From the NCBI RefSeq assembly GCF_903933125.1, contig NZ_CAIZIZ010000177.1, forward strand, positions 1 through 32,611: a stretch of DNA of 32,611 nt. The letters are read 5' to 3'. The translations under genes and the position numbers were made by a program. The stretch comes from an uncultured Lamprocystis sp. GTDB lineage: Bacteria; Pseudomonadota; Gammaproteobacteria; Chromatiales; Chromatiaceae. Positions 1,669 to 31,818 of this stretch are shown here, piece after piece (within the stretch, counting starts at the first letter, position 1; each line of letters starts with the position of its first letter). The notes below the pieces were generated by a model. The model was given only the letters and a program-made list of their open reading frames with translations. It had not been told where the DNA came from and searched no databases.

Positions 1669-2921
1669 ATGTCGCGCGAACTTGAGGCATCCTTGGGCCT
1701 TGCACCGGTCACATCGCAGTCTGCCCGCGGTCTGTTTGCGGTTGTTCTATTTACTTTTCTCTCCTGCCTGCCGGTCTGGTCGGGTGCCTTCGATGTACTC
1801 ACGGCAACTAACCATTCCTATCCAACGACCTGTGCTGAGGAAGATAACGTCAATGTGCCGCTGACCAGCAATTCCAAATTTGGGCGGCACCGCGCGACCT
1901 CTGGTGGATGCGGCGCGCGCGACCGCCGTGCCGAGTCCCTGAGACCGAGCGGCGCGCCTTAACCACCCTACAACGGAGACGGTTTCGTAGGGTGGATAAG
2001 CGCAGCGCATCCACCATCGGCCTCGCTGCCGACACGCTGTTGGCGGCGGCCACCCAAATTTGGAACTGCTGGCCGCTGACGGCTCACGCCGCAGCCTATT
2101 TTTCGGTGCAGGCGACCCATCCCGCGTACCAGATCACACGCACGGGTTGCGGTGCGGACTTCGACGCGACCATCTGTTGTGCCGCGGATTTCTCCGGCTG
2201 CCCGTCATCCGCAACGACCTCTGCCCGATTGCGCAGCGCGAGCCTCTCGTGTCAGAAGATCTTCGATGATGGCATCAATGCCTTTACCCTTTGCACCGAA
2301 CTTTCCTGGTGGCGTCCTTCTGCCATGACCGTCACGATCGCTGGGGCCAACTTTGTGGGCCATCGGCTCGTGCTGAACCGCAAGATCGCCGACGAAGCAT
2401 CCTGGCCGGAGGTTTTTGTGCTTTACGAGGACGGAAACATACGGCTCAAGCCGCATCCGCCGGTGGGGGTGCGGGATGTCTGTCTGGGAAGTTCCGTCAT
2501 AGTCGGTCCGGCGGCCGTGGACCCTGTGCGGCCTTTCGTCGACATCGCGTCGGTAGTGATCGACCCGGCCGTGCCGTGTTTTGCCATCCAATACGCTGGA
2601 GGTGGCACCGCGCGTGCTTGTCTGAGAGTGGACCGTCATGCGGCGGTGCTCGACGTTATGCCTGCCTATGGCATCGCTCTGCCGCTTGTGACCTTCCGCT
2701 CTATGTGGGTGGAAGACGGCAATGCGGATGTTGATCATCTGGAAAGCGGCCCCACGAGCACGCCCATCCTGGGTCTCTGGAATGCCATTGGGGGCAGTAC
2801 CTTGGCATTTGGACGCACCGTGCCCAGTTTGCACAATACCTCCGCCCCCGATATCACCATCAACGCGACCGACGTGGAGACGACTCTGATGCCGCGCCCC
2901 TGGCGGTGGTTCTTGCCATAG
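1669..2921 (+). pseudogene. secreted protein gene split by an inverted-repeat element
   Basis: ATG 1669 has a strong AGGAGG five to eight bases upstream. The first 66 residues hold a hydrophobic signal-like segment (LFAVVLFTFLSCLPVWSGA) and then an exported-type sequence. Reading enters an inserted element at 1866 and stops at 1960-1962, giving a 97-residue product. The downstream frame resumes after the element and runs to 2921 without stops. Deleting 215 bp (element plus one 9-bp duplication) joins the two halves in frame to a 345-residue protein. The downstream part has a cysteine-rich start (several Cys in the first 60 residues after the junction) and no motif I recognise. The break looks recent because the downstream frame is still open. 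It was probably the gene of a second integron cassette. Confidence 0.75.
1866..2071. mobile_element. 206-bp MITE-like element with 9-bp target duplication
   Basis: The ends are inverted: CAGCAATTCCAAATTTGGG at the left and CCCAAATTTGGAACTGCTG at the right. GCCGCTGAC occurs directly before (1857-1865) and directly after (2072-2080) as a 9-bp target-site duplication. It has no coding capacity. The centre contains the palindrome GTAGGGTGG/CCACCCTAC around 1968-1996 and a GGTGGAT/ATCCACC motif. A diverged copy of the left two thirds lies at about 30261-30396 in the opposite orientation. A transposase supplied in trans is inferred. Confidence 0.8.
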
Positions 2922-30201: not shown

Positions 30202-30260
30202 GCGATCCTGTCAGTTCGGTAGGATGGGCATTGCGCTTGCTCTGCCCATCCGACGCGCGA

Positions 30261-30396
30261 CGCTGATCCACCCGACAGAACCGGATCCGCTGTAGGGTGG
30301 ATAAGGCGCGCCGCTCGGTGTCAGGGACCGGCATGTTGGTCGCGCGCGCCGCATCCACCAGGGGCCGCGCGATGCTGCCCAAGTTTGGAATTGCTG
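30261..30396 (-). repeat. partial, diverged copy of the 206-bp element
   Basis: The stretch aligns with the reverse complement of about 1866-2010 at high identity. Shared markers are GTAGGGTGGATAAGGCGCG, GCGCGCGCCGCATCCACCAG and the terminal TTGGAATTGCTG (to 30396). The other terminal inverted repeat is missing and no 9-bp duplication flanks it. It lies in the 400-bp spacer between cbbO and the phosphoesterase gene; the rest of that spacer holds only the REP-type repeat and a GGTAGGATGGGCA palindrome (about 30220-30255). Confidence 0.7.
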
Positions 30397-30447: not shown

Positions 30448-31818
30448 ATGGAGCGCGCCCCGGTGACCACGACCCCCGCCGATTCTCCGATCCGGATCCT
30501 GCACCTGTCGGATTTCCACTTCAGCACCCGCTCGCAGTGGGACGCCGACCCGATTCTGCGTGCGCTGGCCGGCTTCATCGCCGCCGATGCCGCCGAGAAC
30601 GCGCTGTACCCGGACCTGGTGATCATCACCGGCGACCTCGCCCAATCCGGCAAGCGCAACGAGTACGCACTCGCCCGCCAGTGGCTGGAGGATCTCTGGC
30701 CCCACCTGACCCGCGATCCGGCGACGCCCTTGCCGTCGGACCGCCTGCTGCTGGTGCCGGGGAATCACGACGTCGACTGGAACCTGATCGAACCGGGCGC
30801 CCGCGATGCCCACCAGGCACTGCTCGCCGCCAAGACCCAGGACGCGGTGACCGACCGCCTCAAGTCCAAAGACACGCGGGAGTTGCTCTTCAAGCGCCAC
30901 GCCGCCTACCTCAGATTCCACGGCGACTGGCTGAAGCAGCGCCAAAGCCTCCCCTGGTGGCAGCGCCGCATCCGCCTCCACAACCAGGATCTACATGTCG
31001 CCGGGCTCGACTCCGCCTGGCTGGCCGGCGGCGACGACGACAGCCGGCTCCTGCTCGGCACCTCTCAGATCAACCAGACTGTCCTGCATCCGAAAGGCGA
31101 GGGCGGCTGCGACTGGCGCATCGCCCTGCTGCACCATCCCTGGGCGTCGCTGGCCGAATTCGACCGCAACGACGCCCAACGCACGCTGCACCGCCATCGC
31201 GACCTCATCCTGCGCGGTCATCTCCATGAGCCCGACCTGTTCCGTATCGTCCCCGCCGACCCGCGGCGCTCCTGCATCGAGGCCGCCGCCGGGTGCTGCT
31301 ACTCCGGCAAGCCTTATCCGAATGCGTTCCAATGGGTTGAACTCCATCGCGACCCCCGGCGGGTGCTGTTTCACTTCCGTTGTTGGAATCAGGGTGACTG
31401 GCAGGTGGATCGCAATCAGCCGGGGTGTCCGGAGGGGACGCATACCATTGATCTTCCCGCGGCGGCTGGTGCGGTTCGTTCCTCACCGCACCCTACGCGG
31501 AAGGCTGACCGGCAGGTGGATACTCATCTGCCGGAGTGTCCGGAGGGGACGCACACTGTTGATCTTCCCGCGCCTGCCGACGGACCAGTGCAGATGCCAG
31601 CCCGCCATGACACAGCGCCTGTTCCCAAGCCGAGCGCGGCAAGCCCCGACGGCATCAACTCTGGACTTCACATGCATCGCGGTCGGTGTCGCTTTCGGGA
31701 TGGACCAAGACAAGACCCCGATCGGCACCATCCTGGTCTCCAGCCGGGTCTCCTGCTACGAGCCCCAACGGGTCGGTCAAGGCCAGCCTATCCAACGCGG
31801 CGTCAGCGTCCCCGTTGA
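30448..31818 (+). CDS. calcineurin-like metallophosphoesterase
   Basis: Open frame of 456 residues from ATG 30448. Residues 16-310 are a class III-cyclase-like or Icc-type metallophosphoesterase: ILHLSDFHFS, LVIITGDLAQSG, LLLVPGNHDVDW, IALLHHPW and LRGHLHEPDLF give the full DxH, GDx, GNHD, H, GHxH metal set. Residues 317-390 are a proline-rich linker carrying a duplicated 37-residue unit (VDxxxPxCPEGTHT). Beyond about residue 395 the frame enters sequence that encodes a nucleosidase-like protein in another frame, so the true C-terminus is uncertain and a frameshift is likely. Such phosphoesterases occur as effector or nucleotide-hydrolysing domains in multidomain signalling and defence proteins; the substrate here is unknown. 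Confidence 0.75.
   Translation: MERAPVTTTPADSPIRILHLSDFHFSTRSQWDADPILRALAGFIAADAAENALYPDLVIITGDLAQSGKRNEYALARQWLEDLWPHLTRDPATPLPSDRLLLVPGNHDVDWNLIEPGARDAHQALLAAKTQDAVTDRLKSKDTRELLFKRHAAYLRFHGDWLKQRQSLPWWQRRIRLHNQDLHVAGLDSAWLAGGDDDSRLLLGTSQINQTVLHPKGEGGCDWRIALLHHPWASLAEFDRNDAQRTLHRHRDLILRGHLHEPDLFRIVPADPRRSCIEAAAGCCYSGKPYPNAFQWVELHRDPRRVLFHFRCWNQGDWQVDRNQPGCPEGTHTIDLPAAAGAVRSSPHPTRKADRQVDTHLPECPEGTHTVDLPAPADGPVQMPARHDTAPVPKPSAASPDGINSGLHMHRGRCRFRDGPRQDPDRHHPGLQPGLLLRAPTGRSRPAYPTRRQRPR
31395..31573 (+). repeat. duplicated linker unit with embedded palindrome
   Basis: A 68-bp sequence at 31395-31462 recurs at 31506-31573 (111-bp period, exactly 37 codons), with GTGTCCGGAGGGGACGCA in both. Between the copies is the palindrome GGTGCGGT/ACCGCACC (31468-31492) followed by CTACG, a form of a repeat common in proteobacteria. 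Confidence 0.75.

Follow-up and report, generated by a model that had tools for sequence, protein, structure and literature searches.

A 206-bp MITE with a REP core in Lamprocystis, and the 1.45-kb insertion sequence that probably supplies its transposase

The 206-bp element at positions 1866-2071 of the window, by which we mean the whole stretch of 32,611 nucleotides analysed here, is a MITE: it is short, its 19-bp terminal inverted repeats match at 18 of 19 positions, and it has no transposase gene. We put at roughly 0.87 the probability that this non-autonomous element owes its insertion to a DDE transposase encoded by an insertion sequence (IS) of 1.45 kb found in the same genus. The host, an uncultured Lamprocystis sp., belongs to the purple sulfur bacteria; the window corresponds to an entire contig (C177) of its 7.1-Mb assembly in 589 contigs. 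Taken by itself, a MITE insertion in the window is an ordinary event; the family to which it belongs, called here MITE-A, is large and recently active. The features of the window are the following (coordinates, strand, description).

27-124, no strand: attC-like site (GCCTAAC ... GTTAGGC), z -5.5
1658-1663, plus: AGGAGG, likely ribosome-binding site, 5 nt ahead of ATG 1669, read from the sequence
1669-1865, plus: split open frame, 5' part, whose start resembles a signal peptide by eye
1857-1865, no strand: target duplication, left copy, 9 bp, GCCGCTGAC, read from the sequence
1866-2071, plus: MITE-A, 206 bp, delimited by ends, copies and alignment
1866-1884, plus: left terminal inverted repeat CAGCAATTCCAAATTTGGG, whose first 17 bases equal the right end of the partner IS
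1902-1970, minus: degenerate REP partner with its GTAG tag inward and an enlarged loop, from inverted repeats, with limits drawn by us
1987-2015, plus: GTAG-type REP palindrome with an 11-nt loop on a 7-bp stem, from a palindrome scan
2053-2071, minus: right terminal inverted repeat CAGCAGTTCCAAATTTGGG, whose first 16 bases equal the left end of the partner IS
2072-2080, no strand: target duplication, right copy, GCCGCTGAC, read from the sequence
2082-2921, plus: split open frame, 3' part, 279 codons and stop, to which no Pfam or NCBIfam model matches at E 1 or below
30219-30396, minus: one-ended, diverged remnant of the MITE-A family with a further GTAG palindrome, from end motif and palindrome

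The initial annotation had described a 206-bp MITE with inverted ends and a perfect 9-bp duplication, and both descriptions hold with the exact limits given above. Allowing up to three mismatches, three matches to the end motif were seen in the window against 0.01 per dinucleotide shuffle, and two of the three are the two ends of the element itself, whose strand also folds far more strongly than its shuffles (z -8.4). The remnant at 30219-30396, which has its GTAG palindrome at 30219, lies about 50 bp ahead of an open frame starting at 30448.

The further genomic copies with the same ends that the annotation had proposed to look for were found in number. The host genome contains 205 matches to the 19-bp end with at most two mismatches (111 forward and 94 reverse), while the reversed pattern used as a control gave none, and in a sequence search of the host with the element the best 40 of 288 candidates all had E values of 5.2e-65 or better. 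Across the eight genomes of the genus, end matches with at most one mismatch numbered 164 in the host and 164, 20, 11, 1, 0, 0 and 0 in the others. One match, in G007 of the same genus (C2:373378-373420), is also present at those coordinates in NZ_CP020371.1, a plasmid of Candidatus Thiodictyon syntrophicum, which makes that purple sulfur bacterium a near relative of the host. When a 23-base end pattern (at most two mismatches) was searched for in 369 class-sampled genomes, it was found in the host and in one other genome, and the single match in the latter, with two mismatches, was taken as chance. In a genome of another genus (G390) two unpaired copies of CAGCAATTCCAAATTTG lie beside genes (L197:1750 and L198:2389); these end-like 17-mers are single, with no partner end or transposase in the stretch examined, and are possibly remnants of a related element.

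The duplication seen in the window recurs in the family. We collected 65 distinct two-ended elements of the genus, 100-400 bp long and with both 9-bp flanks known, comprising MITE-A, a second type described below (MITE-B) and variants; since they were taken from the best matches and from places of our choice, they are not a random sample. Perfect 9-bp duplications flank 34 of them and perfect 10-bp duplications three, while in the remaining 28 no length from 6 to 14 bp gives a perfect duplication, nine of these 28 differing by one mismatch at 9 bp. Not one of the 65 has a perfect duplication of 6-8 or 11-14 bp. Cross-pairing of flanks, used as a control, produced two perfect 9-mers in 4160 pairs, and both are explained by one site occurring in two species. 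This site, with the duplication GCGCGCGGC and flanks 91-94% identical, is occupied by a 167-bp element in G000 (contig C220, L144 997-1163) and by a 385-bp element in G002 (contig C131, L150 780-1164). A single insertion common to both genomes means that MITE copies are also inherited; the different lengths look like an old insertion whose length has since been altered. A second shared insertion may exist at 1489-1718 of L073 (G005) and L090 (G002), where the 12-base left flank is identical, and the L090 copy has a perfect 10-bp duplication. At another locus (L047, contig C62 of G000, 1501-1696) the right end and its 9-bp flank CCTCGGCGC recur 570 bp onward (2266), with no second element.

The annotation had left the transposase family aside and suggested that an IS with matching inverted repeats be sought; such an IS, of 1.45 kb, was found in two genomes of the genus, and it is probably the source of the transposase moving MITE-A, to judge from its ends. 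The first copy (G005:C152, L190:1338-2783), located through end matches without the MITE interior, is 1446 bp long, has an open frame of 457 aa and has no target duplication; the second (G002:C89) is 1445 bp long, 94% identical to the first and flanked by a perfect 9-bp duplication, ACGCGCTGC, and its frame is split into two pieces. At each end 16-17 bp are identical between IS and MITE. The IS ends differ at position 6, which is G on the left and A on the right; among 56 distinct full-length MITE-A copies oriented like the window copy, the combination at the left and right ends is A/G in 39, A/A in 12, G/G in five and G/A in none, row orientation having been set by the terminal 45 bases, position 6 among them. 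In the host the IS is present only as pieces (six matches, the longest of 143 residues), and four of these are right ends, 99% identical to the IS of G005 and with different flanks, at the ends of contigs C399, C579, C307 and C111.

The transposase of the genus IS scored 17.5 bits against PF01609 (DDE_Tnp_1), below the cut-off of 23, and 11.8 against 152 for NCBIfam transpos_IS4_2, while a Calothrix relative reached 24.1 bits against PF01609. The first D, the second D and the E of RW..E are invariant columns in all eight aligned transposases, and a catalytic role for them is suggested by this conservation. In the PDB, a search with the transposase found only two proteins, both of them designed repeat proteins, at E 0.018 and 0.042.

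Relatives of this transposase are encoded on 14 plasmid records, nine of them cyanobacterial, and the ends were inspected in six of the 14. A Gloeothece protein, WP_013335080.1, is 42% identical to the genus transposase and is annotated as an ISNCY family transposase, ISNCY being a holding category ('not classified yet') and no family. Both of the two Calothrix copies have CAGCAATTC ends and a perfect 9-bp duplication, and the same ends with a duplication matching at 9 of 9 positions were found for one copy each in Anabaena and Nostoc edaphicum. The one Gloeothece copy has the ends and no duplication, and the one Methylomagnum copy has no recognisable ends; in the plasmids of Nostoc C057, Dolichospermum and Gloeothece citriformis only single end matches were found, with no partner end. 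In Thiodictyon syntrophicum a 1605-bp IS, 31% identical, occurs in four copies, with duplications matching at 9, 9, 9 and 8 of 9 positions. Since CAGCAATTC ends and 9-bp duplications are present in Nostocales and in T. syntrophicum, both recur across the transposase group.

Between its ends MITE-A carries a pair of GTAG-type REP palindromes, one of them degenerate. At 1987-2015 of the window a GTAG tag adjoins a palindrome, which corresponds to the definition of a GTAG REP in the available part of PMC3733652; in the same part, RAYT transposases are hypothesised to move such repeats. MITE-B has the same ends as MITE-A around a different body, A+T-rich and of about 126 bp (L157:830-955, G002:C56), and occurs at five loci (L157, L171, L172, L177 and L173) spread over four of the genus genomes; its 9-bp duplication is perfect in G002, in a 122-bp copy of G000 and in two copies of G001, and matches at 8 of 9 positions in G005 (L173). 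No GTAG palindrome was found in either MITE-B or the partner IS. We aligned the 56 MITE-A copies, window copy included, and found that mean column conservation, from 5' to 3', is 0.966 in the left end, 0.849 in the following interval, 0.934 in the REP partner, 0.849 in the next interval, 0.979 in the REP, 0.846 after it and 0.950 in the right end. The REP and its partner thus reach the conservation of the ends themselves and exceed that of the three stretches beside them. This pattern is a lead and no proof of selection, as the aligned copies had been chosen for resembling the window copy or for sharing its ends and one row (L165, 51% identical to the consensus) aligns poorly. We tentatively suggest, as something possible if still doubtful, that in this genus a REP dimer has come to serve as the body of a MITE moved by a DDE transposase, so that REPs would spread here through an enzyme unrelated to the RAYTs credited with making them, and that the REP module is actively kept.

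Tn5 likewise duplicates 9 bp, and Tn5-like transposases (PF14706) are found in five of the eight genus genomes, the host included, with short pieces only in G001. However, it is very improbable that one of these, or any transposase other than that of the IS, moves MITE-A: at the eight Tn5-like loci scanned, several of them cut by contig ends and the scan to that extent incomplete, no end motif lay nearby even with six mismatches allowed, and Tn5-like transposases were set aside as makers of the 9-bp duplication because their ends do not match. The 12 PF01609 transposases of the host were rejected as movers as well, the ends not lying close by any of them: at these loci, several of which are also cut by contig ends, we found only two scattered end matches with five mismatches (five allowed). 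A different question is where the body came from. Many bacterial MITEs are thought to derive from an IS by internal deletion, and both ends of MITE-A match a single IS, so it could be proposed that MITE-A is a simple internal-deletion derivative of this IS and that its REP-like hairpins are parental remnants. We regard this as improbable, since no GTAG palindrome was found in the partner IS, since the sequences of MITE-A and IS differ inward of the 16-17 bp ends, and since the REP is also found on its own. An identical 29-nt REP without MITE ends within 160 nt occurs in a congener (L077, G001) and in a different genus (L080), and three further genera (L079, L081 and L083) have it with one or two mismatches, again without ends within 160 nt; among the 11 loci listed, L078 is a 29-mer locus with an end nearby. 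The reading that we prefer remains a REP-bearing body moved by the transposase of the IS.

As for the insertion site, the annotation had held that the open frames on both sides rejoin in phase when 215 bp are removed, and the downstream frame indeed lies in the phase expected after inserting 215 bp (2 mod 3). The upstream frame, starting at GTG 1663 or ATG 1669, continues inside the element as far as a stop codon, TAA 1960-1962; position 1962 is A in the window copy and T in 54 of the 56 aligned copies, so this stop is private to the window copy among the aligned sequences. Counted from ATG 1669 the joined frame has 345 codons, and for the ancestral 345-residue protein the frame arithmetic, the ribosome-binding site and modest codon evidence speak in favour, while the uninterrupted homologue that was to be looked for did not appear in relatives, class genomes, plasmids, viral contigs or GTDB contigs. 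The 3' part (279 aa) matched only itself in 55 genomes (54 relatives and the host) and in 369 class-sampled genomes (host included, overlapping the 55) and had no homologue among PLSDB plasmids; six pattern matches in IMG/VR viral contigs and 44 in GTDB contigs, from searches that reach close relatives only, gave none confirmed. Neither half fits any Pfam or NCBIfam model, these two collections being the only ones searched with the 5' part. As the 3' part has no match in the 54 relatives or in the 368 other class genomes, no empty allele was found, and the claim that the break is 'reversible' is not supported.

It may also be asked whether the split frame is merely a chance open frame, with the MITE located in a spacer. 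The missing homologues and domain matches favour this, as does the abundance of long open frames in this DNA: of 780 positions drawn at random from the flanks of other copies, flanks that themselves contain genes, 53% have at least 300 open codons. In addition, the 5' half has a codon score per codon of -0.18, lower than the -0.08 that the MITE itself obtains, and is only narrowly the best of its six frames (runner-up -0.23). Nevertheless, we consider a chance frame rather unlikely, given the AGGAGG 5 nt ahead of the ATG, the compatible phase across the insertion, and a codon score that is the best of six in both halves, clearly so only in the 3' half (0.09, runner-up -0.17). Codon usage thus backs chiefly the 3' half. 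It should be noted that it offers little guidance here, because the neighbouring 185-aa frame scores -0.68 in its own frame, no better than its other frames; a housekeeping gene of the window, which is itself in the reference set, scores 0.50. We infer that the split frame was once a functional gene, and its product was probably an exported orphan protein. Across the family, the median number of codons open across the insertion site is 250 for 39 copies with at most one duplication mismatch, against 322 for the 780 random positions drawn from those flanks, so that insertions tend to avoid long frames; in ten of these 39, window copy included, at least 60 codons are open on both sides.

The split gene had also been called a cassette gene, and it is probably one. 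The attC-like site at 27-124 lies nearby, and an integron integrase scores above the model cut-off in five of the eight genus genomes, the host having only pieces below it; on the other side, no attC-like fold follows the split gene (z -0.2), and only GGCCTAAT (2981-2988) is left there. A degenerate attC-like site at about 1017-1110 (z -1.3) and the one at 27-124 bracket the 185-aa frame. Each of the two genes is followed by a GGCCTAA motif (at 1016 and at 2981), and the stretches that precede these motifs, 960-1022 and 2922-2988, resemble each other as though the genes had formerly had related cassette ends. The interval between the degenerate site and the split gene contains, at 1145-1414, the core of a group II intron (RF02005 at 79.6 bits), in which no frame of at least 100 aa was listed; it is possibly an intron that has lost its protein.

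That the transposase of the partner IS acts on MITE-A is something we infer from sequence comparison, and the insertion would then proceed as follows. The transposase would make staggered cuts in the target, 9 bp or, rarely, 10 bp apart, producing the duplication, and would seem to require little beyond the 16-17 bp ends, so that bodies of different origin could be moved, MITE-A with its REP pair and MITE-B with none. The window copy would have inserted about 65 codons into the open frame of the orphan protein, which was probably exported, and would have broken the frame, since 215 is not divisible by three. A large MITE family is in this way tied to a likely transposase in bacteria where we found neither described: a literature search of mostly open-access coverage found nothing on MITEs in purple sulfur bacteria or on ISNCY, MITE and 9 bp together, and under the same coverage PMC3733652 was the only work found to treat REPs and MITEs jointly. 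Moreover, clear ends and 9-bp duplications are supplied for a transposase group that annotation has left unclassified. Two repeat systems are stacked here, REP palindromes inside a MITE, and both the spread of REPs by a DDE transposase and the advantage of a REP to a MITE are made testable.

The ISNCY-labelled Gloeothece IS and its relatives share the CAGCAATTC start with the IS of Lamprocystis, and the 9-bp duplications are present in Calothrix, Anabaena and Nostoc edaphicum. However, their ends diverge after base 9, and they measure 1.77-1.89 kb against 1.45 kb in the Lamprocystis genus. In cyanobacteria, the available text of PMC3049150 and PMC3733652 describes the Nezha MITE, small and non-coding, for which ISNpu3-like elements are proposed as movers. 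Like MITE-A, Nezha is a small non-coding element tied to an IS via its ends, and relatives of the genus transposase are also cyanobacterial, but the host of MITE-A is a purple sulfur bacterium and its body is a REP pair, Nezha being compared by description only.

MITEs and integrons also occur together in Acinetobacter, where class 1 integrons are flanked by MITEs that may mobilise the integron (PMC10969869, in the portion available), whereas in Lamprocystis MITE-A breaks a probable cassette gene instead. Finally, the core of MITE-A resembles the GTAG REPs in the accessible part of PMC3733652 in its GTAG tag, 7-bp stem, 11-nt loop and inward tags, the arrangement called there a 'TT dimer'. The difference is that RAYT tyrosine transposases are credited with making GTAG REPs, whereas the REP pair of MITE-A is enclosed by DDE-type ends and 9-bp duplications.
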